Below, piece after piece: positions 8,156 to 57,386 of a stretch of 64,000 nt of DNA. Origin of the DNA: Candidatus Rifleibacterium amylolyticum (GTDB taxonomy: Bacteria > Muiribacteriota > Ozemobacteria > Ozemobacterales > Ozemobacteraceae); the NCBI GenBank assembly GCA_009917695.1, contig JAACJG010000018.1:1-64000 (forward strand), written 5' to 3'. Numbering within the stretch: the stretch's first letter is position 1; every line of letters begins with the position of its first letter. Below the pieces are notes generated by a model. That model ran no database searches. It was given only the letters and a program-made list of their open reading frames with translations, and was not told where the DNA came from. Position numbers and translations under genes: made by a program.

Positions 8156-8404
8156 TCAGCAACAGATTGATTTGCTTGTGAGCTTTTTCAGTTCTTCTAT
8201 CAGAGCAGGCTCATCCAAACTCTCTGCCTGAACGAAAAAACCAAGATCTCCAGCTTCGTAGATCAGTTGAGAGGGAAGAATCTTTTCCGGCCCGGCGCCA
8301 GCAATGAACGACCAGCGCCGGCCCAGCTTGCGGCATTGCCAGATTCTTATCTGATAGCTGTTCGCAAGCCTTTCAAGATCAAATGTAGAGATCTCGTTCG
8401 CCAT
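8156..8404 (-). CDS. Small unknown protein after the HydG-like gene
   Basis: 82 aa, no family recognised. No signal peptide or membrane segment; it is mixed alpha/beta with several Trp/Tyr residues and ends in CC. A good ribosome binding site (GAAAGGATC) precedes the ATG, which lies inside the HydG-like gene so that the two overlap by 26 nt. Coupled translation suggests a role with that enzyme. It is too short and too plain for me to propose a function. Confidence 0.6.
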   Translation of the reverse strand: MANEISTFDLERLANSYQIRIWQCRKLGRRWSFIAGAGPEKILPSQLIYEAGDLGFFVQAESLDEPALIEELKKLTSKSICC

Positions 8405-9905
8405 TACTGATCCTTTCGTAATAACTCATGGTCAGATCATAAAGTTTTTTGCTGAAAATCGAAGGCGTCTGCTTTTTAACCTCTTCGATTTCTTTGCGTA
8501 TTACCTCTTCACCGGCTTTTCGGGTTTCGTCTGAGGCAAAGTCGTCGAGCCATTCGCGGTAGGTAAGAATGGCGTTGAGTTTGCAAAAGTGCTTTTCATG
8601 ACCCTTCTTGAGCATATCCATGATCTGGTCGCCTGTGCGCCCGCAGCGGTACCCGGCAGTACAGAAAGAGGTTATTACGCCACGCTTCGCGAGATCGTGA
8701 ATCAGTTCTTCGAGTGATCTGGTGTCTCCAAGCATGAATTGTTGTTCATCAATATTCTGGCAGGATGTGTTTTTGGCATAACCGCCGATACCGATCACGG
8801 TTGAAGCGTCAGTCTGTGTGCATCCTACGAAAAGTACGTCATCACGCACTTCTTTTCTTTCGCGCGCGGTGATGATGAGGCCAGTATAGGGCACGGCAAG
8901 CCTGATAAGAGTTACAATTTTCTTGAAGTCTTCGTCTGATACAAAATACTTCTGGTGATCAGACTGTTTGAAGAGGGGCGAATTGCTGGCTGGAGTGATA
9001 CGCGGGAAAGAAATGGTATGTGGGCCAACGCCAAATCTCTGCTCGAGTTCTATCGCGTGATACAGCAGACCCATCAGGTCGAAACGCCAGTCATAAAGAC
9101 CGAAAAGGCAGCCAATCGCAACGTCATCTATACCGGCTTCGTATGCACGGTGATGCACGTAAAGACGCCATTGATAATTACCTTTTATGGTGTTGGCCGG
9201 ATGCAGCTTACGATAGGTTTCATGATGGTAGGTTTCCTGGAAGACCTGATAAGTGCCAATGCCAACTTCATGAAGCTTGCGCAGATCGTCAACACATAGT
9301 GGCGCTGCATTTACATTGACGCGACGGATCTCACTGTGCCCTTTGCGGGTTTTTACGCTGACTTCATATATGCTTTTTATTGCCTCGGCAATGTAATCGC
9401 CGTCACTGTCAGGATGTTCGCCAAAAACAGCAATAACACGTTTATGGCCTATTCGACCGGCTATGGCTTCGGCTTCGGCCTTTATCTGATCCATGTTCAG
9501 GCGTTCGCGTTTTTCGTGGGTATTGTCGCTGCGAAATCCACAGTACAGGCAGTTGTTAACACAGTAATTGCTGCAATAAAGCGGAGCAAAGGTTATAATG
9601 CGGTTATCGTAAATTTTGTGCTTGATGCGCGCTGCCATTTCAAACATTTCCTGCCAGACAGCCGGATCTTTGACCTTGATCAGGGTCGAAAGCTCTTCCG
9701 GGGAAAGTGTTTTGATATCGTATGCTTTGGCGAGAATTTCGCGCACGCGCTCTAATGAGGGTTCCTGGGCGGCTTCGATTTGTTTCCAGATCTTGTCGTC
9801 GTCGATGAAATCTTTGCCGTCAACCAGGTAGCGCTCGTATTCTTCGGGTTTTATTACAGAGTTGATCCAGGAATTCGCGGGAATTTTTTCGTTGACCAGT
9901 TGCAT
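8379..9905 (-). CDS. HydG-like radical SAM enzyme with altered C-terminal cluster motif
   Basis: 508 aa, matching HydG throughout its length. HydG splits tyrosine with SAM to supply the CO and cyanide of the [FeFe]-hydrogenase H-cluster. The radical SAM motif is Cys115-X3-Cys119-X2-Cys122 in YCSNYCVNNCLYCGF. The HydG C-terminal motif CX2CX22C, which holds the auxiliary Fe-S cluster, reads C415-T-A-G418-Y-R-C421 with the third Cys at 441. The middle cysteine is thus glycine, and an extra cysteine lies three residues later. GGGAGG precedes the ATG. No hydE, hydF or hydrogenase gene is in the window. It may be a true maturase with displaced ligands or a paralogue with another product. Confidence 0.85.
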   Translation of the reverse strand: MQLVNEKIPANSWINSVIKPEEYERYLVDGKDFIDDDKIWKQIEAAQEPSLERVREILAKAYDIKTLSPEELSTLIKVKDPAVWQEMFEMAARIKHKIYDNRIITFAPLYCSNYCVNNCLYCGFRSDNTHEKRERLNMDQIKAEAEAIAGRIGHKRVIAVFGEHPDSDGDYIAEAIKSIYEVSVKTRKGHSEIRRVNVNAAPLCVDDLRKLHEVGIGTYQVFQETYHHETYRKLHPANTIKGNYQWRLYVHHRAYEAGIDDVAIGCLFGLYDWRFDLMGLLYHAIELEQRFGVGPHTISFPRITPASNSPLFKQSDHQKYFVSDEDFKKIVTLIRLAVPYTGLIITARERKEVRDDVLFVGCTQTDASTVIGIGGYAKNTSCQNIDEQQFMLGDTRSLEELIHDLAKRGVITSFCTAGYRCGRTGDQIMDMLKKGHEKHFCKLNAILTYREWLDDFASDETRKAGEEVIRKEIEEVKKQTPSIFSKKLYDLTMSYYERISNGERDLYI

Positions 9906-9925
9906 TGCATGCCTCCCTTGTCAGG

Positions 9926-10204
9926 TCATGATCGGGTTAGAACGGCCTTAACACTGACATCCGGGAGTTGACCAATTTTACCGGTCATGGCACCAATCTC
10001 GTCGTTGGTTCCATCTACGATCAATGACACGACAGAAACTCCGCGTTCTTTGTAGGGTAGCCCCATGCGGCCCACAATAATGCCGGAAAATTCATGCAGC
10101 AGTTCATTGAAACTACTGAAAGCCCGGTCGGGGTTTTTCAGAATGACTGCCACAACGCCAAGGCGACGTTTATCCTGCAGGCTTTCTGAAGTGTCATCGT
10201 TCAT
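9926..10204 (-). CDS. TM1266-type putative iron-only hydrogenase system regulator
   Basis: Small soluble protein of 92 aa. The segment LGVVAVILKNPDRAFSSFNELL, followed by GIIVGRMGLPYKERGVSVVSLIVDG, is the pattern of the TM1266 family, an ACT-like fold found next to hydrogenase maturases and described as a putative regulator. I chose the ATG at 10204 because GAGGAG lies just upstream; an upstream in-frame start would add 12 residues of no family character. The HydG-like gene begins 20 nt downstream, so both are one operon. The ligand and mode of action of this family are not established. Confidence 0.82.
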   Translation of the reverse strand: MNDDTSESLQDKRRLGVVAVILKNPDRAFSSFNELLHEFSGIIVGRMGLPYKERGVSVVSLIVDGTNDEIGAMTGKIGQLPDVSVKAVLTRS

Positions 10205-13499: not shown

Positions 13500-14099
13500 A
13501 TGAAAAAACAAGGGCAAACAGATCTGTTCTGGCAGTTGACCAAGGCGATATTGTCGTTTTTTGCAATGACTCTTATTTTGAGCGGGTGCGCGGCCGAATC
13601 GCCAAACCCTCTGGCTGTAGAAAAACTCAACGGCGATCCACCGAAGCAGGAACTTCTGACCATGGACCTCGACTGCCGTGGCATCATCAATGGCACTTTT
13701 GAACCGGGCGGCACTGTGCCTTATCGTGCGAACATGTATCCAATCAATTACACCGGCAATTGGGATCTGATTCTCATGCAATCAAGCCAGTGGTATATGA
13801 TTACCTGTGATGAACCGGGTGCCCGCATAGATGTCGTAGCCACAATGAGTCGTGTGGTGTTCGACTTCTGGAATTACGAAATGTACGATAATCCAGGGAA
13901 AGTCTCATTCGAAATCGATGGCAGACCTCTGGGCAGCTTTGATCTTGCTCGCTCGGCACCTGATGGAATGCCTTATCTCAACTATCAGATAACCACTCAG
14001 AAAAACACTGTCGCGACGATCAGCATGATACTTGAATCAGGCCGGGTAACCCTGGTTGGTTACCTGATCAATTTTCTCGACCCTGATTATCAGTATTAG
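13500..14099 (+). CDS. Predicted lipoprotein of unknown function
   Basis: 199 aa. An unusually long N-terminal region leads to the lipobox LILSGC, with lipidated Cys30. The mature part is beta-rich with many aromatic residues and no known motif. AGGAG lies 6 nt before the ATG. The stop overlaps the convergent carrier-protein gene by 4 nt. Aspartate is absent at position +2, so by the usual rule it would go to the outer membrane. Confidence 0.72.
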   Translation: MKKQGQTDLFWQLTKAILSFFAMTLILSGCAAESPNPLAVEKLNGDPPKQELLTMDLDCRGIINGTFEPGGTVPYRANMYPINYTGNWDLILMQSSQWYMITCDEPGARIDVVATMSRVVFDFWNYEMYDNPGKVSFEIDGRPLGSFDLARSAPDGMPYLNYQITTQKNTVATISMILESGRVTLVGYLINFLDPDYQY

Positions 14100-14329
14100 C
14101 CGCCGCCTACCATAAGCATAAGTTCAAGTTGGTCGCCGGCCTTGAGATTATCGCTGTGCGCGCATCTTTTGCCGTTCCTGACGACCTGAATGAAATCAAG
14201 ATGTGACTTTTCGAAATGTAGAGTTTCGAGAAAATCCCTGACCGTTGCTTTATCTTTAACTTCGAAATCCTGCTTTTTCTGGTGAGGGCCACTGCTTATT
14301 GCACCAACAAATTCAACATTTATTTTCAT
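14096..14329 (-). CDS. ThiS/MoaD-family sulfur carrier-like protein
   Basis: Beta-grasp protein of 77 aa ending in Gly-Gly-Gly, the exposed tail that an E1-like enzyme adenylates and that then carries sulfur as a thiocarboxylate. The start at 14329 follows AGGAG; a longer in-frame version is less likely. The sequence KATVRDFLETL and the AGDQLELMLMVGGG end are typical of the fold. The E1-like gene is 11 nt upstream, so the two are a carrier-activator pair. With no thiamine or molybdopterin genes nearby the pathway is open. Confidence 0.82.
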   Translation of the reverse strand: MKINVEFVGAISSGPHQKKQDFEVKDKATVRDFLETLHFEKSHLDFIQVVRNGKRCAHSDNLKAGDQLELMLMVGGG

Positions 14330-14340
14330 TTGTGCTCCTG

Positions 14341-15081
14341 TTAAAATGACCGGCAATGCGGGCATGATTTGTCGCGGTTGATCGCAACACTGCTGAAACG
14401 GTGATCCCAGGCATCGTAGTATTTGAGATCATAATCGATGTGTTTTTCGACAAGAAAGCGCAAGGCTGCTGCTGCGCTGATCGATGCGATTATGGTGACT
14501 ATCGGCGTGATGACACCGCTGTTATGAACGGTGGGGAATTCTGCCGGAGCGTCGGTATCAGGAATAAGACAGCGCAGGCACGCCGTTTTACCTGGCATTA
14601 TGAACATTGACTGTCCTGAAGATGCTGTTACGGCAGAATGTACCCATGGTATTCCAAGTTCGATTGCCTGCTGATTCATTATAAAGCGGCTGGCAAAATT
14701 ATCTGTACCGTCGAGCAGCAGATCGCAGTTGCCGAAAAGATCACGAAAATTTCGCGCATCGAGTCTTTCGCAGAAAGCTTCGATGCTGATCTCAGAATTG
14801 ATGCGCGAAAGCTTGTCGGCAGCTGAAATGGCTTTGCTGCAGCCGATATCAGACTCATCGAACAACATCTGCCTCTGCAGGTTTGAAAGCTCAACCTGGT
14901 CTGAGTCTACAAGTACAAGTCTGCCAATCCCACTGCGGGCACAGATAGAGGCAAGATTACTGCCAAGAGCTCCCACTCCAAGTATGCCAACCCGGCTTTT
15001 CCCGAGTTTTTGCTGTCCTTTGAGCCCTATTGGCTTGAACAGCAGCTGTTTTTGATAGCGTTCGAAAATATTCTCAGCCAA
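14341..15081 (-). CDS. ThiF/MoeB/HesA-family adenylyltransferase
   Basis: E1-like enzyme of 246 aa that should activate the C-terminal glycine of the adjacent carrier protein with ATP. The nucleotide-binding loop is GVGALGS, followed by LVLVDSDQVELSNLQRQ, the DGTDNFASR motif and two zinc-binding pairs, CLRC and CPHC near the end. At the place of the family's conserved cysteine (C-x-x-x-GV, the catalytic Cys184 of E. coli ThiF) the sequence is V-H-N-S-GV. It therefore probably works like MoeB, by adenylation without a covalent cysteine intermediate. It starts 2 nt after the S4 gene. Confidence 0.88.
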   Translation of the reverse strand: MAENIFERYQKQLLFKPIGLKGQQKLGKSRVGILGVGALGSNLASICARSGIGRLVLVDSDQVELSNLQRQMLFDESDIGCSKAISAADKLSRINSEISIEAFCERLDARNFRDLFGNCDLLLDGTDNFASRFIMNQQAIELGIPWVHSAVTASSGQSMFIMPGKTACLRCLIPDTDAPAEFPTVHNSGVITPIVTIIASISAAAALRFLVEKHIDYDLKYYDAWDHRFSSVAINRDKSCPHCRSF

Positions 15082-43020: not shown

Positions 43021-46000
43021 TTAGCCGTCAATTACAACTCTGAGCCCAAATTCTTTCATGCTGTAGATAATTCGGCCATCTACCTTCAGGAAGCCTTCGG
43101 CAACCAGCAGATGATCGGCATCGTCAACGCGGGTGATGCAGGCATCGACGGTTACCAGATCGTCTTTCGGAATTACCTGACCGCGATACGACCAGCTGTG
43201 CTTGAGCCCGACCGCTATCGGTTCGAAATGGCAGTTGCGCCCGGCAAGTTGCTGGCCCCAGCGTTTGATGGCAGCGACTTTCATGAGCTGAATGAAGGAT
43301 TCGAGCCCCAGTGAGCCGGGGATAACCGGATCCTGGAAAAAGTGTGCCTTGAAGAACCATTCGCCCGGATCGACTTTTTTGGTGCCTCTGATAAAGCCAA
43401 GTCCGGCCGGGCCGCCATCGGGAATGCACAGCTCGATGCGGTCAAGCATCAGATAGCATTTTCCGGGAAGGGTGAGGCCGTTCATGGCATCGACGCGGGT
43501 ATCTTCCGGGTTGAGCGGCGAGACGATTTCGAGCGGGAAATCGACGTGACGCTGCTTTTCGGCAGCAGAAGGCTCATAGAGTTCAACGCCGCGCAGGCCG
43601 ACCTGATTGGCAAGCGCTTCCTCAGAGAAGAAGCCGAAGGTAGTGCTGCCTTCGTAGATGGTGCGGCCGGACTGGGTTACCAGCATATCGAACGACTGTA
43701 TCAGCATGCCGGCAGAGTTGGCGGCTTTGGTTGATTTAACCGTAGCTGTCAGCGTGCCGCTGTTGACGTTGATATCTTCGTAGAGAGTGGCGAAGCCGTC
43801 GAGATTTCGGTAGTGCAGGTCTTTGTCAGCAGCGAAGGCCGAGCCCATGAAGCACGAATACCAGCCGCAGACCTGCAGCGGGAACTCGAGCAGCACCGAG
43901 AAAGGTATGCTGGTCTGGCGGTTGGCCTTGAAATACCAGTGGTCAGGGCTGATATCGAACTGACCCTGCACGGTGCCGCCGGTTTTGATCTTGAGAAATT
44001 CGGCATTAACAGCGGTAATGCGATCGACAAAGAGATAAGGCGGGTTGGGTAAACGGGCAAGAAACTTGCCCCTGTCGAAGGCTTCGAACTTCTCGCCGAA
44101 GCAGAGTGAGGGCTTGCCAATCGCGTATTCAAGAATCTGCTGGCCGGTATAGATGGCTGGCAGAACTTCGCTCATCTGCGGGGCCGGAGCTGGCGCCGGG
44201 AACTGTATGCGGTTGCGCCAGAGAGCTTCGATGCTCTCGCGACTGGCGCCGGAGAGGCGGATGCTCATGTTGAGAACCTGCACGATGCGGTTGCCGTCGG
44301 CGAACATCAATGCATCGGCGATAGCGTATGGTTCTGGGTTATAGCCGAGTTCCTTGATCGAGATATCGTAGAGAGCTTTTTTGACGCCGGGTATGACCTG
44401 GCCGCGGCAGCGCAGCTGGCTTTGTACTTCGAGTACCGGCTCGAAGGCACAGGTCGAAGCGTCAGCAACCCAGCCCATGCGCAGCAGGAATACGCGCAGG
44501 GACTGCATGCAGCTTTCATACATCAGGGTTCCGGGCATGACCTGGTCGTCACAGAAGTGCTGCGTCAAAAACCAGGCGTTGTGAGGAATGTCGATTTCGG
44601 CTTTGATGCGGCCGAGGCCGAAGCGGCCGCCGTTCGGGTCAATTTCGGTAATGCGGTCGATCATTGCCATTTTACCGGAGGGAAGCGTGTGTGGCGTCAC
44701 CGGGAGGCCGGCAAACTCGCTGCCGAATGCGGCGGCGAGGTTGCCCGCACGCAGTGCGGCGAGGGCCGAATCATTGAATGACTCTACCCGCATGGTCGGC
44801 AGGTTTTGTCGCCCCGGCAGGTTGGGGCGCGGATCTGGCCGAATATCGTCGTCGGTCAGCACGATTCCCTTGCCGTCGGCAAGCTGCTGGTCGGTAAAGA
44901 ATCCGGCACAGCCGTTGCGCATGGTGATCAGCTGGCGCCCGTCGATGGTGCCATCGAATTCAAAGAAGAACAGATAGGTGTTGGCCTGTCTGATGAAGCG
45001 ATCGACGCGGATATCGTAGTTGATTGTGTCGCCGGGGCGGGGCAGGGCGCCGTGAATGGTGACAACTGCGTCGAGCAGACGGTATTTGGCGATGCCGTGC
45101 GTCTTGAAGTCGATGCCAAGCCAGGCGGAGAGGAAGAGGTCGGCCTGACCAGCTTCTACCGAGAGACCGGTCGGCATGCAGTAATTGTCGAGATACCAGG
45201 CATCCGGGTAAACGTCGTGCTGGGTGACGCAGCGGCCCTTGCCGAGCGAGCCCTTTTCGCCTTCGACGAGGATCATGCGGTCAACGAAATTGAGTGGAAT
45301 ATCGGGCAGACGCACGCGGGTGGGGTGTGCATCGATCGGCGCGAAATATTCGCCGAGAACTTTGCCGATCTTGCCGACGGCGAATTCCATAGAACCGGCC
45401 CAGTCAAAGAACAACGGCCCGGTATAAGGCTTCGGCATGCGCTGTGCGTAGGCAGGAACAGACTTGGCAGGCTGCACAGATACCGGCTGGGTTGTCGGCG
45501 CTGGTGAAGGAGCAAGCCATTCGTAGCTTGCGGCATCAGCCGGCATACCCTGCAGCAGGTTCAGTTGCTGTTCGAGCAGCATGGTCTGAGCCTGGCTGAG
45601 CTGGTTGCTGAGGCGCAGAAATACTTCGTGCGCGCGCGCGGTTTCCTGCTGGGCGGCAACCCATTCTGCCAGCAGCGGATTGGCAGCTTCACCGGCAGTG
45701 ACAGCTTGTTGCGTCGGCGCTGCATGCTGTACCGATGGCTGATATTGGGGTGCAGTCTGGTGTTGTGCTGGCATCTGATGTTGAATCTGTCCTGTTTCAG
45801 CCGGCATCTGCCGACTGACCGGTGCTGACTGGTTTGTTGTTTCGGCGGTCATGACTCTTTCGCTGGTTAGATTATTGCTGGTAGATGCCAGAGCAGCTGC
45901 CGTAGGCGAAGCCACCTGCTTCAGCTTGTCGAGAGCGATCTGATGCTCGACCCTGACAGTTATCGGGGGTATTTTGCTGGCCGGCTCGATCGCTGGCTTT

Positions 46001-49000
46001 TCGATCTTCTGGTATAGCGGCGCGAGATCGACCTTGACGCCTTCAGCAGCGGTGGCTGCTATAAAGCGCAGCATTGAACTCGTCTGGTTCTGTCCGTGCA
46101 GCAGGGCTGAGCGGGCAAAATGCGGGCGGTTGCCGAGAATTGTCGAGATCATGCGCGACATCGAATTGCGCGGGCCGATTTCGAGGAATACGCGGGCGCC
46201 TTCTGCATAAGCGGTTTCAACACACTTGATGAAGTTAATGCGACCGATGCACTGAGCTTTGATTGAATCGGCCGAAACTTCGCGTTCGGGCGTGAATACT
46301 ACGCCTTTACCGCTGCTGATATAGGTCATGCCGGCAGGCGGGTGGCAGTCATAAAGATGCAGGGCGCGATAGTCTTCAGCTGAGGGCAATGCCGCTTCAC
46401 AATGCACCGATGACACGCCGTCGAGCGGAAAGAAGGCTTTGCCAACTGCTTTGGCGAGTTTTTCGACCTGGGCGCGGTTGCCGCCGATTACACATTCTTC
46501 GGGGGTGTTTTCGATGAGAATATAGGTCTGCGGAAAGTCAGGCAGCAGCTTCTCGACCTTTTCGGCCGGGCTGTAGAGTACGCCAAGGTACCACTCTATT
46601 TCGTCATTTTCGCTGAGACCCCAATGTTTGCGCGGCGAATTGTAGCGCCCGATCAATTCAGTGGTGAAGAGGTTCGAGCTGCGCATGCGGCGCACCATTT
46701 CGTCGCGTTCGCGCCAGTTGCGGGTTGCGAAGTTGCCGGCGGTTTCGCCGAGGCTGTAACCCATGACGATCTGCGGCTCGATACCGAAGCTTCTAACAAT
46801 GTCGCTTACCAGTGCACAACATGATACGTGGCTGAATACCAGCGAGTTATGATCGGCGAGCAGACGGCGCATGGCGTCTTCCTGCCATCCTTCAGCGTAA
46901 CTGAGGCGCCAGGGCACAGTCAGGCGCGGCGCAAACTGGGCTGCCAGCAGTTCATACTGCTCGTCGAGCCGTCGCAGATGTTCGGGCCAGGTGAGGCCAA
47001 GAGCTGTACCCATGCCGAGAAAGTGATTGCCTGAGCCGGGAAAGGCGAAGGTAATCTTGCCTTGCGCTGCATTAGGGCGCGGATTGTAGAATACGCGATC
47101 CTGAATATCCGGGTTGGCAGGCAGGGGCTGGCTTTCGTTATTGTAAAGGTGATTGAGCGCTATTTCGATGCGGCGGCGCAAAGTTGCCGGTGAATCGGCA
47201 ACTATGCCGGCAATAGATGTGGCATCAGTTCCGGGCGCATAGTGTTGCCAGTATTCGCGTGCAAGTTCGCGGGTCGGGCGGTCTGCCATGTTGCGCAGGG
47301 CGGCCAGACGTTCGCGGGTGTCGCAGGCATTGATGCCGCCAACGATGAAAAGGCTTTCGTCTGGGCCACCCGCCGGGTAAACGCGACTCTGTTCGACCAG
47401 TTTGCGGGTGTCTGCTGATAGCTGTTCTTCGTTCTCAAAAGCCTGCAGAACTACGTGATAGTAGTTGCCGTCAATGGTGAAGCTGCTGACTCCGGCTGTT
47501 CTCGTGCCCTGAATGCGATTGCGCAACCAGTATTGCGGCTCAGATGGCGTAAAGAAGAAGTCTTCACGATTTTGTAGTTCTGGCAGCGGATTTTTCAGAG
47601 CGTGCTGGCGCGGCAGGATCTGCTGATAAAGGCTGACAGCAGCTCGTGCCAGACTGAACAGGCCGGCAGCACAGCCGGTGTGACCGATAAAGCTTTTGCT
47701 GCTGGTCAGAGCACAAAGCTGATCGTTGCTCTGAAAAAGATTCTCGGCAGAGATTTCTTTGGCAGGCAGAGTGACTGCCAGGGCGGCGGCTTCTATGCTG
47801 TCTTCTTCTGGATTGCCGCTGCCATTAGCTTCGAGCAGACCCATATCAGACATGTTGAGACCTGATTCGCTCCATGCCGAATGCATGGCGCGGCGGTAAG
47901 CATCGACAGCAGCACTTTTGTCACCCGGAGTCGTCAGCGTCGCACGGCCAACGCTCTTGACGACTGCGATGATGCGATTGCCGTCGCGCAGGGCGTCTTC
48001 TTTGCGCTTGAGAACCAGGGCAACAGCGCCTTCTCCAGGAAACGCACCGTCAGCTGAAGTATCGAAAGGGACTGAACCGTTTTTGCGCGAAAAAGGTCTG
48101 AGTGCATCGACAGTTCGCAGATTACGCAGATCACCAGCCAGATCGACGGCACCGACAAGAGCGGCAGAAATCTCGCCGCGCTGCAGCGCACGCATACCGG
48201 CTTCAAGAGCTGAGAGACCTGAGTTCTCGCCACTCGAAAAAGTGTGTGATGGCCCGCCAATATTGTATTCGCGCGCTATGCGGCTGGCGACGATGCCGCC
48301 GAGAGCCCCAACTGTACGCGGGTTGTTGAGCGGTGGTGTTATTGCGTCAGCCAGGCTGGCGCGATCGTATTCGCCGAGTTCAGCCTGGGCAGCGTCATTT
48401 TCGATAGCCCAGCGGCTGGCGAAGTTGGTGGCCGAAAAATCGAGATTGATGCCCATGAATACTCCCCAGTTACGGGTTTCTTCGCGGCTGTAAGAGAACG
48501 AACGCAGGGCGCGTTCAGCCGTCTGCAGCATAAGCAGCTGTTGTGGGAGTATTTCTGGAATTTCTTTCGGGCTGATCTTGAATTCGCCAGGTCTTACTTC
48601 GATTTTGTCGATATAAGCACCTTTTTTGAACCAGCTTTCCTGAGAGACCAGCGGGTGGCGATGCGGCGGCAGATCAGTAACAGCTGGTTCGCATCTCAGA
48701 GAGGCGTTTTTGAACGCTTCAGCGTCAGCAAGCGTGCCGACTCTGGTTTCCAGGGCGACAATTACGATTTCCGGAATCGGCTCTGCCGCATGTTCTTTCG
48801 CTTTGTCCTTTTTCTTCTTTTTGTCGGCAGGCTTTTCGGCAGGTTCAAGGTATTCTTCGAGCAGCACGTGACCGTCGATGCCACCAAAGCCGAAGGCGCT
48901 CAGAGCGCAGCGACGTGGCTGACCTCCTGCCGCTGGTTCCCAGGCCCGGGGTTGTTTGAGAATTTCAAAATATTCCGTGTTCAACGCAGGGTCGGCTTCG

Positions 49001-50199
49001 CTGAAATTAGCCATCGGCGGCAGTTGTCTGTTTTTCAGCGCCATCAGAAGCTTCATCAGGCCGGCGGCTCCGGCTCCGGTCAGCAGGTGACCGACGTTTG
49101 ACTTTACCGATCCGATAACGCACTTCGAACTTTGCGTTTTTTCGCTCTGCCATAACTGGCTGAGACTTGACAACTCGACGGCATCGCCTTTAGGAGTGCC
49201 GGTGCCATGGCATTCAACCAGTTGAACATCGCCTGGTTGCCAGCCGGCCTGGCGATAGGCCTGGATCATCGCGCGCATCTGACCTTCTGTGTCGGGCGCC
49301 AGCAGGCTGCCGCCGACGTCGTTCGCAAGACCGATGCCACGGATTACTGCATAAATGCGGTCGCCGTCGCGTTCAGCATCTTCGAGACGTTTGAGCATGA
49401 AGATGCCGGCGCCTTCGCCGACGACGAGGCCGTCAGCGGAACGATCGAATGGTCGGCAGATGCCAGTTTTCGAGAGGGCATGCAGTTGCGAGAAGCCCAT
49501 CTGGGTAAACTGTGACGACGGGCGTGACACGCCGCCGCTCAACACCGCATCGGCGCGGCCAGCGGTTAGTTCTTCGCAGGCCAGCTTGATCGCATACAAA
49601 GAAGAGGCACAGGCGGCATCGAGCGTGTAACCGCCGCCGCCAAGACCGAGAGCGGAAGCCAGCAGCGTCGCCGGCAGTTCGGCTGCGAGACGATTGAGCG
49701 GATGAACGTTCAGAGCCTCGTCTGCGCGGCTTTTGCCGAGATGCCGGCGCAGAGCTTCGAGATTAACCTGGCGGGTTATCGCGCTGGCCGTATCGGTTGG
49801 CAGAACTATATTGGCAAGGATTACCTGAACGCGATTGCGATCGAGACCGGCAGTTCTGCTGTCGAAGAAGGCATCACGTCCGGCCTGCAGTGTTATAGAC
49901 AGAAGCGGATCGAGTTTTTCAATCAGCTGCTGGCTGATTGCAAGGTTTGCATAATTCTGCGGAATCTTTTTTATCGCACAGTTCCGCGGTGACAGCACAC
50001 AATCTGGCGTACCCGGCCGTGGATCATGATACTTCGTTGCTGGCTGCGGCCAGCGGTCGGCCGGAACTTCAGCCGCAGCGCTGCGCGCCTCGGCGATCAT
50101 CTGCCAGAATTCTTCCAGGCTTTCGGCGCCGGGGAAAATTCCGCCGACACCCGTTATTGCTATGGCAAAAGGCTTGACCGGGCGGGTATCGCTGCTCAT
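43021..50199 (-). CDS. PfaC-like PUFA synthase subunit (KS-CLF-AT-DH-DH)
   Basis: Megasynthase subunit of 2392 aa. KS1 (about 8-450) has the active Cys near 197 in LDAACASSLYA and ECHGTGTPKGD and SVKSNVGH. The second KS-like domain (about 490-920) has SSGENSGLSA at the Cys position and EANGSG in place of EAHGTG, so it is a chain-length factor. An acyltransferase (about 1065-1390) has FPGSGNHF and the Ser in GYSLGE near 1150. After a Gln/Pro-rich linker come four hot-dog folds forming two FabA-like dehydratases, with active sites in HFCDDQVMPGTL (about 1882) and HFFQDPVIPGSL (about 2285). The start overlaps pfaA by 4 nt. The acyltransferase inside this subunit recalls myxobacterial Pfa3. No enoyl reductase domain is present. 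Confidence 0.93.
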   Translation of the reverse strand: MSSDTRPVKPFAIAITGVGGIFPGAESLEEFWQMIAEARSAAAEVPADRWPQPATKYHDPRPGTPDCVLSPRNCAIKKIPQNYANLAISQQLIEKLDPLLSITLQAGRDAFFDSRTAGLDRNRVQVILANIVLPTDTASAITRQVNLEALRRHLGKSRADEALNVHPLNRLAAELPATLLASALGLGGGGYTLDAACASSLYAIKLACEELTAGRADAVLSGGVSRPSSQFTQMGFSQLHALSKTGICRPFDRSADGLVVGEGAGIFMLKRLEDAERDGDRIYAVIRGIGLANDVGGSLLAPDTEGQMRAMIQAYRQAGWQPGDVQLVECHGTGTPKGDAVELSSLSQLWQSEKTQSSKCVIGSVKSNVGHLLTGAGAAGLMKLLMALKNRQLPPMANFSEADPALNTEYFEILKQPRAWEPAAGGQPRRCALSAFGFGGIDGHVLLEEYLEPAEKPADKKKKKDKAKEHAAEPIPEIVIVALETRVGTLADAEAFKNASLRCEPAVTDLPPHRHPLVSQESWFKKGAYIDKIEVRPGEFKISPKEIPEILPQQLLMLQTAERALRSFSYSREETRNWGVFMGINLDFSATNFASRWAIENDAAQAELGEYDRASLADAITPPLNNPRTVGALGGIVASRIAREYNIGGPSHTFSSGENSGLSALEAGMRALQRGEISAALVGAVDLAGDLRNLRTVDALRPFSRKNGSVPFDTSADGAFPGEGAVALVLKRKEDALRDGNRIIAVVKSVGRATLTTPGDKSAAVDAYRRAMHSAWSESGLNMSDMGLLEANGSGNPEEDSIEAAALAVTLPAKEISAENLFQSNDQLCALTSSKSFIGHTGCAAGLFSLARAAVSLYQQILPRQHALKNPLPELQNREDFFFTPSEPQYWLRNRIQGTRTAGVSSFTIDGNYYHVVLQAFENEEQLSADTRKLVEQSRVYPAGGPDESLFIVGGINACDTRERLAALRNMADRPTRELAREYWQHYAPGTDATSIAGIVADSPATLRRRIEIALNHLYNNESQPLPANPDIQDRVFYNPRPNAAQGKITFAFPGSGNHFLGMGTALGLTWPEHLRRLDEQYELLAAQFAPRLTVPWRLSYAEGWQEDAMRRLLADHNSLVFSHVSCCALVSDIVRSFGIEPQIVMGYSLGETAGNFATRNWRERDEMVRRMRSSNLFTTELIGRYNSPRKHWGLSENDEIEWYLGVLYSPAEKVEKLLPDFPQTYILIENTPEECVIGGNRAQVEKLAKAVGKAFFPLDGVSSVHCEAALPSAEDYRALHLYDCHPPAGMTYISSGKGVVFTPEREVSADSIKAQCIGRINFIKCVETAYAEGARVFLEIGPRNSMSRMISTILGNRPHFARSALLHGQNQTSSMLRFIAATAAEGVKVDLAPLYQKIEKPAIEPASKIPPITVRVEHQIALDKLKQVASPTAAALASTSNNLTSERVMTAETTNQSAPVSRQMPAETGQIQHQMPAQHQTAPQYQPSVQHAAPTQQAVTAGEAANPLLAEWVAAQQETARAHEVFLRLSNQLSQAQTMLLEQQLNLLQGMPADAASYEWLAPSPAPTTQPVSVQPAKSVPAYAQRMPKPYTGPLFFDWAGSMEFAVGKIGKVLGEYFAPIDAHPTRVRLPDIPLNFVDRMILVEGEKGSLGKGRCVTQHDVYPDAWYLDNYCMPTGLSVEAGQADLFLSAWLGIDFKTHGIAKYRLLDAVVTIHGALPRPGDTINYDIRVDRFIRQANTYLFFFEFDGTIDGRQLITMRNGCAGFFTDQQLADGKGIVLTDDDIRPDPRPNLPGRQNLPTMRVESFNDSALAALRAGNLAAAFGSEFAGLPVTPHTLPSGKMAMIDRITEIDPNGGRFGLGRIKAEIDIPHNAWFLTQHFCDDQVMPGTLMYESCMQSLRVFLLRMGWVADASTCAFEPVLEVQSQLRCRGQVIPGVKKALYDISIKELGYNPEPYAIADALMFADGNRIVQVLNMSIRLSGASRESIEALWRNRIQFPAPAPAPQMSEVLPAIYTGQQILEYAIGKPSLCFGEKFEAFDRGKFLARLPNPPYLFVDRITAVNAEFLKIKTGGTVQGQFDISPDHWYFKANRQTSIPFSVLLEFPLQVCGWYSCFMGSAFAADKDLHYRNLDGFATLYEDINVNSGTLTATVKSTKAANSAGMLIQSFDMLVTQSGRTIYEGSTTFGFFSEEALANQVGLRGVELYEPSAAEKQRHVDFPLEIVSPLNPEDTRVDAMNGLTLPGKCYLMLDRIELCIPDGGPAGLGFIRGTKKVDPGEWFFKAHFFQDPVIPGSLGLESFIQLMKVAAIKRWGQQLAGRNCHFEPIAVGLKHSWSYRGQVIPKDDLVTVDACITRVDDADHLLVAEGFLKVDGRIIYSMKEFGLRVVIDG

Positions 50200-53100
50200 T
50201 TTTCGGCTCCAGCTACTGATCGCAGCTTGAAGGCATTGCGCAGGTTTTCATTCATCGTGCATTCATAACCTTCGATTCTGGCAACCAGCTTGCCATCAGC
50301 CCCGATGAAGTCGATGTCAGCCGCTGCCATTGCAGCACCGCTGCGTCTGGTGTGGGCTGAAATAGTCACCGGTTTGGACCCGTAACTTGCGGCATACTGA
50401 CGGTAACGACGGGCAAAACTGGGCAGAGATGGTGCTCCGCAGGCCTGTTCTGTCCACAGGATCATCAGCTGATAGGCGGCATCGACCACCAACGGATCAG
50501 TGTGCCAGCGCAGCATAGGCGGTCGTGCGAACCAGGCCGCCGGGTCGAGAGCCGTGGCAGATCTGGCTACGATGCCATTTTCCGACCATCCTTCGACTGA
50601 TTGGATGGCCTTGAGGAATTCGCCATGGAACAGATGAGTTTTATAGGCTTCATTGATCGAGTCTGGGTATACCAGATGAGCATCAGCCGGAGTTACCGCC
50701 GGAACTTTCGTCGGCAGGCTATCGGTCAGCAGAATTTCAGCCCTGATATTCGTCAGTTCGCGTCCTTCGACCATGCTGCGGATTTCGCAGGTGACGCCGA
50801 AACCTTCGTTGTTCTTCTGAGGTCTCGATGCGTAGAGTGAAAGCGAGAGGCTGCTACTCTTGAGTACAACGCCTTTAAGCACCCGCAGGTCGTCGTAACC
50901 GGCGAACTGCAGGCCCGGGTTGCGCAGTGTGGCAGCATTGGCGAGCAGTTCAGCTGCAACCGCCATTGGCAATACCGGGTCACCGTTGATTACATGATCT
51001 TTGAGCCAGGTGTTTTCTTTGAGATTCAACTCAAAGTCAAACACCCGATCGAATTTTTTTCCGGGCGGCGGAGCCTCCACGCTGGTGATCTCGCCAATAA
51101 TGCTGATTTCAACAGCATTCGCAGAAGGCTGGCTGAGTTCGATCACAGGTTGCTGAGCCCCTTCACGCAGCGGTATCAGACCGATGCCTTCGGCAAGAAA
51201 AACATTGCGCAGGGCAGGTGTGACCATGCCGCCATCCCACGGGCCCCAGTTAAAGGAATGAACGCGGGCGTCAGGTCTGATTATGCGAAGCTTGTGCGCG
51301 GCCTTGTTGAGCACTTCGTTGGCCATTGAATAATCGACCTGACCGGTGCGACCGAAACGGCCAGAGAACGAAGAGAACAGGATAATCGCTTTGATTTCGT
51401 CCTTCACGGTCGCCAGCAGCAGATTGCGCAGACCGGCAACCTTGGTGTCGATTACGTCGTCGAGCTGGTCGCGGGTCTTGTCTTCGATACGGCGGTCTCG
51501 CAGCACGCCGGCACCGTGCATCAGAGCACTGATTGCACCAGATTCGCTGCGGGCGCGGTCGATAACTTTTGCAGTATCATCAGCATCGCGAATGTCGGCT
51601 GAATAGTAGAAAGCCTTGACACCACAATTTCTGATGCGTTCGAGATTGTTGAGAACTTCGCGGTTGGCCATGGCCGAGCGGAATTCACCTTCAAGTTCCT
51701 TTGGCGTGATTTTGCGGCCGATATTGGCCATGATGGCCTGTTTGACCGCGGCTTCGGCGGTAACGCCGGCCAGCCAGGCAGGTTCTGGTTTCGGCTCAGG
51801 TGAGCGTCCGATGAGAACCATGTTGGTTTTGTAGCGCTGTGCAATAGCAATTGCAGTTTCAGCGGTAACGCCGCGGGCGCCACCGGTAACAACGACAGTT
51901 TCGCCCGGGTGCAGTATGGTCGTCTGAGCCTGCATATCTACAGGTTCTTCGACTTCCCGCAGGCCATAGCGACACGAGCGGGTCAGACCGGTTTCGATCG
52001 GGCCTTCCTGCAGAATTTCTCTGACCAGCTTTTCAGCCGCACCACTGGCGTCTTTGAAGCGATAGTCGAGGTCGATCGCACGAACTGTCATCTCAGGCCA
52101 TTCATGTTTGATTGTTTTACTCAGGCCGGCAAGACCACCCTGAACCGGATCAAAGGTGCGGGTCGGTGATTCAAGCCCAAATGCGCCATCCATGCGCGAA
52201 ACCGTAACGATTAGTCCGTTGCCATTGTCGCGGATTGCCATGCCAGCCTTCTGGGTCGCCATAAAGCAATCTTTCAGCCACTCTTCTGATGATTTATCCC
52301 AGAGATTGTGAGAGGCTTTCTCCGGCAGAGGCGCGATAAGCACGAAGCCTTTGATATCCTTAAGAAACTTGGCGTTACCGACGTCAGCCATTTTTACGCG
52401 GCAGGGCTTGAACCCGGCTGACGCGAACTGATTGCAGACTGCTTCGGCGAGACCAAATCCGTCATCGACGACGATCAGGCTGTCGCCCTTTTTGAAGTTC
52501 TTTATCGGAGCTGCCGGTTCGCTGCCGGTTTCGTAAGCGCGCAGCACTGTGCGTCTGAGCGGAAAGAATTCGGGTTCAGACGCGGGTTGTTCGCTTTTGG
52601 CTGCCGGCACCGGGCTGGCTGCTGCAGGCTTTGTCTGAGCCGATGCGGGAGCACTTCCGGCATTCAGGTATTCGAGAATCTGAGCTATGGTTCTGAATTT
52701 GCCAAGATCGCCAGGCTGCACTACCGGTGCGTCTGGAACGCGCTCCTGGAAGGCCGACAGAATTTCGACACGTTTGATCGAGTCGATACCCAGATCGGCT
52801 TCCATATCCATTTCAGGGTTGAGCATTTCGGTTGGGTACCCGGTCTTGTCAGCAATTACTTCGAGCAGAACGCCGTTGATTGCCGCGTTTGCCGGTGCGC
52901 CGGCTGGAACTGCCGCGGCCGGTTGAGCCGCCGGGCTGCCAGAACCGAGATATTCAAGAATCTGGGCGAGGGTACGCAGCTTGCCAAGCTGGTCGGGCTG
53001 CACTACCGGCGCGTCAGGCAGGCGTTCCTGCATGGCCGACATGATTTCAACGCGTTTGATCGAGTCGATACCGAGGTCGGCTTCCATATCCATATCGAGA

Positions 53101-56100
53101 TTGAGCATTTCAGCGGGATAACCGGTTTTGTCACTGACGACTTCAAGCAGAACCGGCTTGATGCTGGCGGCGGCATGCCCACTGGCTGTTGCCGCAGGCG
53201 CTGGTGCGGCATTGCTGCCAAGATATTCAAGAATCTGGGCGAGGGTGCGCAGTTTGCCAAGCTGGTCGGGCTGCACTACCGGCGCGTCAGGCAGGCGCTC
53301 CTGCATGGCTGACATGATTTCGACGCGTTTGATCGAGTCGATGCCGAGGTCGGCTTCCATGTCCATGTCGAGATTGAGCATTTCAACGGGGTATCCGGTC
53401 TTTTCACTGACTACTTCGAGCAGAACCGGTTTTATGCTGGCGGCGGCATGCCCGCTGGCTGCTGTCGCAGGCGCTGATGCAGCGGCTGGCGCAGCATTAC
53501 TTCCGAGATATTGCAGAATCTGGGTAAGGGTGCGCAGTTTGCCGAGCTGATCGGGCTGCACTACCGGCGCGTCAGGCAGTCGTTCCTGCATGGCAGACAT
53601 GATCTCGACACGTTTGATCGAGTCGATACCGAGATCGGCTTCCATATCCATGTCGAGATTGAGCATTTCAACGGGGTATCCGGTCTTTTCGCTGACGACT
53701 TCGAGCAATACCGGCTGTATACGGCTGGTATCGGCGGCGGGAACACTGCCAGCGCGAGCCGGTGCCGACGCGGCAGCTGGTGCCGCGCTGTTACTGCCGA
53801 GATACTCCAGAATCTGGGTCAGCGTCCGCAGTTTGCCGAGCTGATCAGGCTGTACTACCGGTGCTTCCGGCAGACGCTCCTGCATGGCCGACATGATCTC
53901 GACACGTTTGATCGAGTCGATACCGAGGTCGGCTTCCATATCCATGTCGAGATTAAGCATTTCTACGGGATAACCGGTCTTTTCGCTGACAACTTCGAGC
54001 AATACCGGCTGTATGCGACTGCTGGCTGCAGCCGGAGCCGGAACAGGCGCAGGTGCTGCCAACGGTTTTGCCGGCGCTACCGGCGCTGCGACCGGAGCAG
54101 GCGCTGCTGCCGGGCGGGCTGCCACAACCGGAGCTGGCTGCAATATGGGCTGCTGGTAAACAGGTGCTGCTTGAGTGTGAACCATCGGCGCCGGAGCCTG
54201 AACCTGCGACATAGCTGGGCGCTGGCCGGAAATCAGCGTCATGATCGTCTTCTGGGCGGTTTCCTGACCTTCGAGGAATCTTCGGTGCAGATCAGCGGTC
54301 TGTTGCTGCAACTGTTGCAGGGCCGACAGAGTTTCGCGTGAAACTCTCAGTGCATCCGCATTGGCAGGTGCAACGGTTGTCGGCTGAACTGCCGGCTGGG
54401 GCGCTGTCTGCTGATACTTCGGCTGTGCAGCGACCGGTGCCGGTGTCGACACGGCTGCGGCCGGGCATGCTGCTGGTGTTGCAGCTGCTGGCTGAGCGGG
54501 TGCCGGCTTTGCGGTCGACAATTTGACCGTTGCCGGTTTGGCAAGTTCTTCGAGGAATTTGAGGTGGGCCGGTGACTTGTAGTTGGCTCCACATACCGGG
54601 AAGGTCAACTTTGCCTTGCCGGCGGCCGGCTGATTTGCCAGCCAGTTTTCGCCGTCCTGCCAGAGGTTGATATTCAGTTTGTAGCCGAGAGCACTGAGCT
54701 GCGCCAGAACGCGCGCCAGGTCGTTGTAGCCGGAACGTTTGCCGGCTGAAGAATCGACCGCGATTATGCTGCTTTCGCGCCCTTCGAGAATCGATTTGAC
54801 AAGGCTGCTGATTTTGCCGCCGGGGCCGGCTTCTATGAAAGTTCTGATGCCATCGGCATACATTTTTTCGATAATTTCGACAAAGCGCACCTGATTGGCA
54901 AGCTGGAAACCCAGCAGCTTCTTGATCTCGGCGGTATCACCGGGGTAGGGGGCTGCTGTCGTGTTGGCATAAACCGGAACCGATGGTTTCTTAATTTTCT
55001 GATCGGCAAGAAACGCATGAAATGGCTCGGCAGCATCAGCAACGAACTTGCTGTGGAAGGCGCCGGCAACGTTCAGCACAGTTGCGCGAAGCTTGCGGGC
55101 CTTGAAAACTTCGCGTGAGCGCTCGATTTCTGAGGTTTTTCCCGACAACACAACCTGCTGCGGCGAGTTATGATTGGCTACGACGAGATCAAGTTTTTCT
55201 TCTGCGATGACTTCTTTGACAAAGGTGCGATCGGCAGCTACGGCAATCATGCCGCCGCGGTCGCCGCTTCCCTGAGCCATGAGTTCGCCGCGCTTGCGTG
55301 AAAGCCTGGCCAGAGTAGCATTATCAAACGCATTGGCCGCACACAGACCAACCAGTTCGCCGTAAGAATGGCCAGCGAAACCGTCGGCACGCAGGCCAAA
55401 GGTTTCGAGGCTGCGATAATGGCCGAGAGCTATAGCGCCGATGGCAGGCTGTGCAATGTCGGTGGCACGAAGTTTTTCGTCATTGAACTTGTCTTTTTCG
55501 GCATCATAGGTCGGACGCGGAAATACATAGTCTACCAGGCGATTGCCCTGGGCGTCGAGTTTTCCGATAGCATGATTGGCTTCGATGAAGGCCGAGAATG
55601 CCGGCTGAGTGCCACAGACGAGATCCAGACCCATGTCGGGATACTGCGCGCCCTGACCCGGGAAAATTACACCGATCGGGCCTGTATGTTTGCCTGTCGA
55701 GTAATACACACCTGAGGGCAGGTTGAATGCGTCACTTTTCTTGGCCAGATTCCCGGTTATATCGGTGAGAAGCTTTTCAATATCGCCAACGGATTCGATG
55801 ACAAAAGCGAGACGGCAGTTGTCGTCTGCATTGAAGTCACGTCGCGATTCCGCCGCGAAGCGCCGCAACTGGTTGGCATTCTTGCAGTCACTGAGTTTGA
55901 CCAGTCTGTTTTCGATCTCAGTTGAGGTTTTGCCTGATATGGTGATCAGTTCGGCACCACGTTTCCAGTCATCGACGCGCTTGTCGGTGCCGTATTCGGA
56001 AACCACAACATGAAAGTTGCTGCCGCCAAATCCTAAGGCGCTGATAGCAGCAACGCGCGGTTTCGCATCGTCTGTGATCCAGGGCCTGATGCGGTCTGGC

Positions 56101-57386
56101 AGGTAAAATGGCGTGTCATCGCCAGCAAGTGTCGGAGCCGGTTTTGTGATCTTGATCGTTGGCGGAATAACCTTATGATACAGTGCAAATGCAGCCTTGA
56201 TGAGGCCGGCTGAGCCGGCAGCCGCCTTGGTGTGACCAATCTGCGATTTGATCGAGCCAAGCGCACACCATGGGCGACCGTTTTCGCTGCCGCCATAGAC
56301 TTCTTTCAAAGCGGTTGTTTCGACTTCGTCGCCAGCGCCGGTTCCTGTCCCATGTGCTTCGATAAGAGTGATGTCCTGTGGGGTGATGCCGGCCATATCA
56401 TAAGCGCGCCGGAAGGCTTTGGTCTGGCCAGTGGCGCTGGGCGCATAAATGGCTTTGCCTTTACCATCACTCGAACTGCCGACGGCGTTGATGCAGGCAT
56501 ATATTCTGTCACCGTCACGCTCAGCGTCTGATAAGCGTTTGAGCACGACCATGCCGATGCCCTCGCCGAGAATGGTGCCGTCATTGTCGATGCTGAAAGG
56601 TCTTGCCTGACCGGTGGCCGACAGTGCCGGAGTTTTGCAGAAGCACATATACATGAAAATATCGTTGAAAGTATCGACGCCGCCAGTAATGACCATGTCG
56701 GTCTTGCCGGTCCAGAGTTCGAGTGCCGCGTGGTTAACTGCACTCAAGGCGCTGCCGCAGGCAGCATCGACAACACAGTTGGTGCCGCCAAGATTGAGGC
56801 GGTTGGCAATACGACCGGCTGCGACATTGCCGAGAAGACCGGGGAATGAGTTTTCCTGCCAGCCGACATAGGCTTTGCCAATACTGCTGATTACTTCTTC
56901 GGTGATGTCGGCAGGTATCCCGGCATGACGCATGGCGTGGCGCCAGATCGGGTGCCCGAGCCTGGCTCCGAGTGGAATTACCATTTCAAGAGTGCCAGTC
57001 AGACCAAGAATTACGCTGACGTTATCGCGGTTGAAATCCCGGGCAGGGCCGTAACCAGCATCGTTCAGCGCGCCCTGGGCAACAACCAGGCCAAGCAGCT
57101 GCGATGTGTCGATAGCGTCAAGATCGGATGGCGCAATTCCCCATTCGGCCGGATTAAAATCTACCGGATCGAGAAAACCGCCGGTAGCAGTGTACACATG
57201 GTCGGGGCGCTTCTTGTCGCTGTCGAGATAATCAGCGGCTTTCCAGTGCGTGGACGGCACTTCGGTTATTGCGTCTACCTTTTCCTTGATGTTGGCCCAA
57301 TAATCTTCTACGGTTTGAGCTTTGGGAAACAAACAGCTCATTCCAACAATTGCCAGTGGTTCAAATCTTGGTTCTTTACGCTTCAT
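50196..57386 (-). CDS. PfaA-like PUFA synthase subunit (KS-AT-5xACP-KR-DH)
   Basis: Megasynthase subunit of 2396 aa. KS (about 8-450): Cys near 210 in VVDAACGSALSA, EAHGTGTGAGD, SIKSQIGH. Malonyl-type AT (about 560-870): FPGQGAQYPDMG and Ser in GHSYGE near 674. After a Pro/Ala-rich linker five ACPs each carry LGIDSIKRVEI, with phosphopantetheine serines near 1157, 1255, 1351, 1441 and 1535. KR: TGGARG near 1835 and Tyr near 2017 in QVDYSMANE. The C-terminal PKS-type DH has HVINGDPVLP (His near 2132) and DAAYQ (near 2301), so both catalytic residues are kept. AGGAAGG precedes the ATG. It is the first gene of the pfa-ole operon. The ACPs need a PfaE-type transferase encoded elsewhere. Confidence 0.94.
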   Translation of the reverse strand: MKRKEPRFEPLAIVGMSCLFPKAQTVEDYWANIKEKVDAITEVPSTHWKAADYLDSDKKRPDHVYTATGGFLDPVDFNPAEWGIAPSDLDAIDTSQLLGLVVAQGALNDAGYGPARDFNRDNVSVILGLTGTLEMVIPLGARLGHPIWRHAMRHAGIPADITEEVISSIGKAYVGWQENSFPGLLGNVAAGRIANRLNLGGTNCVVDAACGSALSAVNHAALELWTGKTDMVITGGVDTFNDIFMYMCFCKTPALSATGQARPFSIDNDGTILGEGIGMVVLKRLSDAERDGDRIYACINAVGSSSDGKGKAIYAPSATGQTKAFRRAYDMAGITPQDITLIEAHGTGTGAGDEVETTALKEVYGGSENGRPWCALGSIKSQIGHTKAAAGSAGLIKAAFALYHKVIPPTIKITKPAPTLAGDDTPFYLPDRIRPWITDDAKPRVAAISALGFGGSNFHVVVSEYGTDKRVDDWKRGAELITISGKTSTEIENRLVKLSDCKNANQLRRFAAESRRDFNADDNCRLAFVIESVGDIEKLLTDITGNLAKKSDAFNLPSGVYYSTGKHTGPIGVIFPGQGAQYPDMGLDLVCGTQPAFSAFIEANHAIGKLDAQGNRLVDYVFPRPTYDAEKDKFNDEKLRATDIAQPAIGAIALGHYRSLETFGLRADGFAGHSYGELVGLCAANAFDNATLARLSRKRGELMAQGSGDRGGMIAVAADRTFVKEVIAEEKLDLVVANHNSPQQVVLSGKTSEIERSREVFKARKLRATVLNVAGAFHSKFVADAAEPFHAFLADQKIKKPSVPVYANTTAAPYPGDTAEIKKLLGFQLANQVRFVEIIEKMYADGIRTFIEAGPGGKISSLVKSILEGRESSIIAVDSSAGKRSGYNDLARVLAQLSALGYKLNINLWQDGENWLANQPAAGKAKLTFPVCGANYKSPAHLKFLEELAKPATVKLSTAKPAPAQPAAATPAACPAAAVSTPAPVAAQPKYQQTAPQPAVQPTTVAPANADALRVSRETLSALQQLQQQTADLHRRFLEGQETAQKTIMTLISGQRPAMSQVQAPAPMVHTQAAPVYQQPILQPAPVVAARPAAAPAPVAAPVAPAKPLAAPAPVPAPAAASSRIQPVLLEVVSEKTGYPVEMLNLDMDMEADLGIDSIKRVEIMSAMQERLPEAPVVQPDQLGKLRTLTQILEYLGSNSAAPAAASAPARAGSVPAADTSRIQPVLLEVVSEKTGYPVEMLNLDMDMEADLGIDSIKRVEIMSAMQERLPDAPVVQPDQLGKLRTLTQILQYLGSNAAPAAASAPATAASGHAAASIKPVLLEVVSEKTGYPVEMLNLDMDMEADLGIDSIKRVEIMSAMQERLPDAPVVQPDQLGKLRTLAQILEYLGSNAAPAPAATASGHAAASIKPVLLEVVSDKTGYPAEMLNLDMDMEADLGIDSIKRVEIMSAMQERLPDAPVVQPDQLGKLRTLAQILEYLGSGSPAAQPAAAVPAGAPANAAINGVLLEVIADKTGYPTEMLNPEMDMEADLGIDSIKRVEILSAFQERVPDAPVVQPGDLGKFRTIAQILEYLNAGSAPASAQTKPAAASPVPAAKSEQPASEPEFFPLRRTVLRAYETGSEPAAPIKNFKKGDSLIVVDDGFGLAEAVCNQFASAGFKPCRVKMADVGNAKFLKDIKGFVLIAPLPEKASHNLWDKSSEEWLKDCFMATQKAGMAIRDNGNGLIVTVSRMDGAFGLESPTRTFDPVQGGLAGLSKTIKHEWPEMTVRAIDLDYRFKDASGAAEKLVREILQEGPIETGLTRSCRYGLREVEEPVDMQAQTTILHPGETVVVTGGARGVTAETAIAIAQRYKTNMVLIGRSPEPKPEPAWLAGVTAEAAVKQAIMANIGRKITPKELEGEFRSAMANREVLNNLERIRNCGVKAFYYSADIRDADDTAKVIDRARSESGAISALMHGAGVLRDRRIEDKTRDQLDDVIDTKVAGLRNLLLATVKDEIKAIILFSSFSGRFGRTGQVDYSMANEVLNKAAHKLRIIRPDARVHSFNWGPWDGGMVTPALRNVFLAEGIGLIPLREGAQQPVIELSQPSANAVEISIIGEITSVEAPPPGKKFDRVFDFELNLKENTWLKDHVINGDPVLPMAVAAELLANAATLRNPGLQFAGYDDLRVLKGVVLKSSSLSLSLYASRPQKNNEGFGVTCEIRSMVEGRELTNIRAEILLTDSLPTKVPAVTPADAHLVYPDSINEAYKTHLFHGEFLKAIQSVEGWSENGIVARSATALDPAAWFARPPMLRWHTDPLVVDAAYQLMILWTEQACGAPSLPSFARRYRQYAASYGSKPVTISAHTRRSGAAMAAADIDFIGADGKLVARIEGYECTMNENLRNAFKLRSVAGAEK
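52660..54015 (-). repeat. Five tandem ACP-coding repeats
   Basis: Units of about 270-295 bp encoding acyl carrier domains. The four inner-to-upstream copies are almost identical at protein level over about 75 residues, and the most downstream copy (ACP5, around 52660-52880) is the most diverged. Near-identical repeats such as these recombine and can change copy number. Confidence 0.9.

Follow-up and report, generated by a model that had tools for sequence, protein, structure and literature searches.

The hydG locus of Candidatus Rifleibacterium amylolyticum

The window, a 64,000-nucleotide stretch of contig JAACJG010000018.1 from Candidatus Rifleibacterium amylolyticum, carries at positions 8379..9905 of the reverse strand a variant hydG gene, whose 508-residue product is a radical SAM [FeFe]-hydrogenase maturase. 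Upstream of it, at 9926..10204 of the same strand, lies the gene of a TM1266-family protein, and its 3' end is overlapped by 26 nt by the gene of a small protein of 82 residues (8156..8404, reverse strand), which belongs to a family detected only beside variant hydG genes. The NCBIfam HydG model TIGR03955 matched residues 28-506 of the maturase with 449 bits (cut-off 312); the ThiH equivalog TIGR02351 fell below its own cut-off (247 bits vs 380), and the protein has a C-terminal domain, unlike ThiH. The predicted structure showed the HydG fold (pLDDT 94), with 4wcx as best PDB match (TM 0.86/0.96), and the lowest confidence in the core of the model corresponded to the cluster loop (pLDDT 75-77). 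The radical SAM motif C115-x3-C119-x2-C122 (9540..9563, reverse strand, translated as CVNNCLYC) is a complete CX3CX2C, as anticipated in a preliminary description of the locus, and its cysteines are invariant in the subfamily alignment described below. The same description had proposed a TM1266-type partner, and the product of 9926..10204 was indeed a clear member of this family of putative regulators, with no unusual feature (TIGR03959 of NCBIfam, 105 bits, 1.4e-30; PF21699, 106 bits, cut-off 27); our literature search on TM1266 found no relevant paper.

The peculiarity of this HydG resides in its auxiliary-cluster motif (8583..8663, reverse strand), whose translation, CTAGYRCGRTGDQIMDMLKKGHEKHFC, gives C415, G418, C421 and C441. 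The motif thus reads CX5CX19C in place of CX2CX22C, with a Gly at position 418, which is a Cys in the solved HydGs 4wcx and 4rtb. Both the Gly substituting the middle Cys and the new Cys421 had been pointed out before, and both are confirmed by the translation.

Elsewhere in the window, two adjoining multidomain genes of 2.4 kaa were found on the reverse strand (43021-57386), of which one contains two ketoacyl-synthase regions and two FabA-like ones, and the other has the order KS, acyltransferase, phosphopantetheine sites, KR and dehydratase; the pair resembles a polyunsaturated fatty acid (Pfa-type) synthase. A ThiS/MoaD-like protein with a GG end adjoins a ThiF/MoeB-like adenylyltransferase at 14096-15081, also on the reverse strand, and a search of the genome with the HydG model did not detect ThiH.

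A conserved subfamily of HydG proteins

The motif CT[AS]GYRCGRTG was common to the window, five congeners, a genome of another genus of the family (G019) and a genome of another phylum (G049), and other HydGs from the same phylum as the window retained CT[AGS]CYR. A survey with a degenerate DNA pattern run over genome contigs gave at least 118 loci in species genomes, and among the matches listed the motif fell in a HydG-like frame at all 118 loci. The hosts among these listed matches included Lentisphaerae, Kiritimatiellae, Omnitrophota, Elusimicrobia, Spirochaetes, Bacteroidia, Planctomycetes, Deltaproteobacteria, Firmicutes and an Archaeoglobaceae metagenome-assembled genome (MAG), among others; variant hydG was not found in viral contigs. 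Many of the variant sequences come from MAGs, and the cultured or complete carriers include Desulfosarcina widdelii, Clostridiaceae M8S5, Sphaerochaeta halotolerans, Peptoclostridium litorale and P. acidaminophilum. Sequencing or assembly error, chance and a pseudogene were discarded as origins of the motif, which is kept in the five congeners, in one other genus of the family, in at least 118 other genomes and in 16 phyla.

The pattern-found HydGs were aligned together with HydGs collected with the family model without selection for the motif, which resulted in 136 variant and 73 canonical proteins with zero intermediates: G418 and C421 occurred together in 136/136 variants, and C418 in 73/73 canonical sequences. 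In a tree computed after masking of the six diagnostic columns, a single branch with a support of 98 separated the variants, whose rows come from 16 phyla, from the canonical proteins. The CX5CX19C HydG is a conserved subfamily present in at least 16 phyla, as the preliminary description had suspected for the CTAGYRC motif. The invariance of the Gly418/Cys421 pair, which extends down to about 46% identity, points to strong purifying selection, and the perfect co-variation of both positions leads us to infer that C421, three residues past the lost ligand, would bind the same iron. A His near the auxiliary cluster is also almost invariant among the variants. On the canonical side, four of the 73 HydGs (L013, L014, L015 and L016, all from genus g15) carry a Gln instead of the conserved His near the cluster.

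This ligand spacing has been mentioned once already. PMC9431212 assigns CLAU_RS03260 of Clostridium autoethanogenum, in which it describes a C-x(5)-C-x(19)-C motif, as a HydG, and cites an older review for the variability of the motif. This makes the ligand shift itself less novel. The paper also notes the purification of an active HytABCDE1E2 [FeFe]-hydrogenase from this bacterium, so the CX5CX19C form gains indirect support as a working one.

Five genomes (G091, G130, G191, G202 and G227) encode the two forms of HydG, canonical and variant, a coexistence that hints at a non-redundant role. In two of them, P. litorale (G091) and P. acidaminophilum (G130), the canonical hydG lies in a HydE-HydG-HydF arrangement with an ABC transporter and TM1266, and the variant hydG stands alone or with the small protein (L161-L164).

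A rebuilt substrate pocket

Work with the tyrosine lyase ThiH of Thermosinus carboxydivorans (TcThiH) described the phenolate oxygen of the substrate as bound by T299, S318 and S321, with R306 behind, a crown of residues strictly conserved in ThiH and HydG (PMC9046217). Once the window HydG was aligned to 7pd1 (whose chain index equals the PMC9046217 numbering + 10), these residues paired with A347, D366, T369 and R354, respectively, so the tyrosine-binding crown is not preserved in the window protein; the rebuilt stretch A347...T363..D366..T369, in which T363 corresponds to position 315 of TcThiH, is encoded at 8799..8867 of the reverse strand. The crown was intact, as T, S, S and R, in 73/73 canonical HydGs. 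Among the 136 variants, the T299 equivalent was replaced by Ala (115), Cys (9), Asn (8) or Val (4), the S321 equivalent was Thr (70), Ser (64) or Ala (2), and the R306 equivalent was kept in only 107. The S318 equivalent, position 366, was an Asp in 136/136 variants and a Ser in 73/73 canonical proteins. R300 and E301 equivalents remained invariant across the variants. Over the whole alignment, the columns that best split both groups were 347, 363 and 366, beside 418 and 421; as the groups are defined by 418 and 421 and not by the crown columns, the change in the crown constitutes independent evidence. Further residues specific to the subfamily are E437, H252, T412 and I371. Cluster site and substrate pocket have both changed in the same proteins, and none of the 136 and 73 HydGs represented a stepwise intermediate.

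The loss of a crown that is otherwise strictly conserved (PMC9046217) means that ordinary tyrosine chemistry cannot be taken for granted in the variant. A carboxylate would be unfavourable beside a phenolate, which suggests either that tyrosine is bound as a neutral phenol, with a hydrogen bond to Asp366, or that some other amino acid is used. The latter reading, in which the variant would be a non-tyrosine lyase that converts an amino acid with an N-H or cationic tip, such as tryptophan, into dehydroglycine for the same H-cluster pathway, strikes us as a tenable prospect, although a less than even one. It is favoured by the lost hydroxyl of Thr299 together with the universal Asp at Ser318, by the partial conservation of Arg306, a residue turned towards the phenolate in ThiH, and by the position of the cleanest discriminating columns, which fall in the tyrosine pocket when the group-defining motif is left aside; the coexistence of both HydG types in some genomes goes in the same direction. 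On the other hand, an Asp is also able to bind a neutral tyrosine hydroxyl, as it does in tyrosyl-tRNA synthetases, the Ser/Thr at 321 is mostly retained, as is the tyrosine-lyase-type insertion, unlike in NosL, and no gene adjoining hydG indicates another substrate.

Hydrogenase maturation and relation to known systems

The preliminary description had noted that HydE, HydF and hydrogenase genes were missing from the window, and had suggested that the HydG may be a paralogue that cleaves an amino acid for another purpose. None of these genes is present among the annotated ORFs of the window, but the genome to which it belongs (5.39 Mb, 95.6% complete) offered a very different panorama. The family search revealed one HydG, that of the window, and a second match to the HydG model that corresponds to HydE (342 bits, above its cut-off); HydF was also found (585 bits), adjoining an aspartase-like gene, as well as seven Fe_hyd_lg_C matches, three of them with recognisable H-cluster motifs. 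Thus, the idea of a HydG without hydrogenase fails, because a full system exists elsewhere in the genome and hydG is merely unlinked to hydE, hydF and hydA. Similar results were obtained for 50 other genomes with the variant: it was the sole HydG in 48, HydF occurred in 47, an [FeFe]-hydrogenase in 45 and TM1266 in 30, often at the hydG locus, and some of the absences may stem from incomplete MAGs. Moreover, the complete genome G049 shows the run HydA, aspartase, HydF, variant HydG, small protein and HydE, and D. widdelii the order HydG-HydE followed by HydA, aspartase and HydF; aspartate ammonia-lyase is a known neighbour of hyd genes (PMC11736057). The Archaeoglobaceae MAG keeps variant hydG, small protein and [FeFe]-hydrogenase on a single contig (L044, G060:C6:55878-59432). 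Two other genomes, G016 and G052, have full-length [FeFe]-hydrogenase matches and no HydG above the cut-off, which may reflect an incomplete assembly or another route.

These data bear directly on the possibility of a HydG paralogue devoted to some non-hydrogenase use, with TM1266 as its regulator. Although the altered pocket and cluster motif, the separation of hydG from hydE, hydF and hydA in the window genome, and the canonical HydG of the five genomes mentioned above could fit such a protein, we regard it as improbable, given that no other HydG accompanies the variant in the window genome, which has several [FeFe]-hydrogenases, or in 48/50 of the others, and that the variant sits within hyd gene clusters in other genomes. 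A decayed HydG without a full auxiliary cluster, releasing just free CO and cyanide or dehydroglycine, would agree with the loss of one of the three known cluster cysteines but hardly with a new Cys and a Gly418 kept in every variant down to about 46% identity, and can be dismissed with some assurance. The most likely purpose of the variant HydG is the usual H-cluster.

The ORFs of about 80-110 residues located just 3' of variant hydG genes constitute one family, with invariant R30, S32 and G36 and a G-x-RWS[FY] signature, which had no match in Pfam, NCBIfam or PDB. In most matches, its aligned region begins inside the hydG frame, 11-20 nt from the end of the latter. When a model of the family was searched in 57 relatives, the eight that matched were exactly those with a variant hydG; six of these belong to the window's genus and are members inside the model, and G019 and G049 lie outside it. 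None of the remaining 49 matched, though 21 of them have a canonical HydG. The small protein was also detected in 18 of the 50 other variant genomes, adjoining the variant hydG every time, and in four of 147 P. litorale relatives, all with variant HydG; of the two hydG genes of P. litorale itself, it adjoins the variant one. A 24-residue match in G180 (E 0.005) was weak and was treated as chance. In a contig of a Planctomycetota MAG (L071:667-2007), the small protein is fused to HydE in a single protein of 447 residues, whose HydE part was identified by NCBIfam (283 bits, residues 119-431). Its predicted structure follows an alpha-beta-beta-beta-beta-alpha order (pLDDT 80), and comparison of the model with PDB gave nothing significant (best E 0.1), the weak PAS- and roadblock-like matches being disregarded. 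Since the product of HydG goes directly to HydE (PMC12752695), the small protein probably assists either HydG or the hand-over from HydG to HydE. It would not be essential everywhere, as it is absent, or too diverged for detection, in many variant genomes.

Altogether, we consider it quite probable that the window gene encodes a genuine H-cluster maturase, a HydG in which one cluster ligand has moved and the substrate pocket has been rebuilt. This reading builds on the observed sequence changes and their co-segregation, the sole-HydG status, the co-occurrence with hydrogenase genes, the gene order and the one fusion of small protein and HydE. In the proposed mechanism, radical SAM chemistry would cleave an amino acid to dehydroglycine, which would yield CO and CN- at the additional iron of the auxiliary Fe-S cluster, located in the C-terminal part and bound via C415, C421 and C441. 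The variant would still make the usual product, and the resulting Fe(CO)2(CN) unit would be passed on to HydE and HydF, with the co-encoded small protein aiding HydG or this transfer. The pocket that grips the ring oxygen of tyrosine, rebuilt by a Thr to Ala change and a Ser to invariant Asp change, may accept tyrosine, possibly as a neutral phenol at Asp366, or another amino acid. A bolder version, a second type of HydG that dispenses with tyrosine and combines another amino acid, a differently ligated cluster and a dedicated small protein passing the product to HydE, is rather unlikely.

To our knowledge, the biochemistry of HydG rests on the CX2CX22C form. As the sole HydG in at least 48 of the genomes examined and in that of the window, the variant provides a natural experiment on the features that the H-cluster pathway requires, and on whether tyrosine is the universal source of CO and cyanide. 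The variant may likewise account for some genomes with hydrogenases in which hydG escapes motif searches, a difficulty met in PMC9431212, and its companion represents a new small gene family linked to H-cluster assembly.

Compared with the HydGs of Thermoanaerobacter italicus (4wcx) and Carboxydothermus hydrogenoformans (4rtb), the window protein shows full-length homology (443 and 317 bits), the radical SAM motif, the fold (TM 0.96 by target), the Arg300 equivalent and two of the three auxiliary-cluster cysteines, and the variant, as known HydGs, is found together with HydE, HydF and HydA. It departs from them in the CX5CX19C motif, the T299 to A/C/N/V, S315 to T and S318 to D changes, and the co-encoded small protein. 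CLAU_RS03260 can be likened to the variant by motif spacing, the feature given for that one protein in the accessible part of PMC9431212, where the subfamily, the pocket change and the partner were not found. ThiH (7pd1), from which the crown residues were taken, shares with the variant the tyrosine lyase fold and Arg300/Glu301, but lacks the C-terminal auxiliary-cluster domain and has T299, S318 and S321 intact. The tryptophan lyase NosL (4r33) has the same fold and a non-tyrosine aromatic substrate, and does not keep Arg306; it differs from the variant in cleaving a different bond and in lacking both the one-residue tyrosine-lyase insertion and the auxiliary-cluster motif. In the literature searched, a set with most subscription papers outside it, we found no description of the subfamily, of its changed pocket or of the small protein, and what is new here is the loss of the crown across a whole subfamily of HydGs and a small protein tied to the variant hydG.
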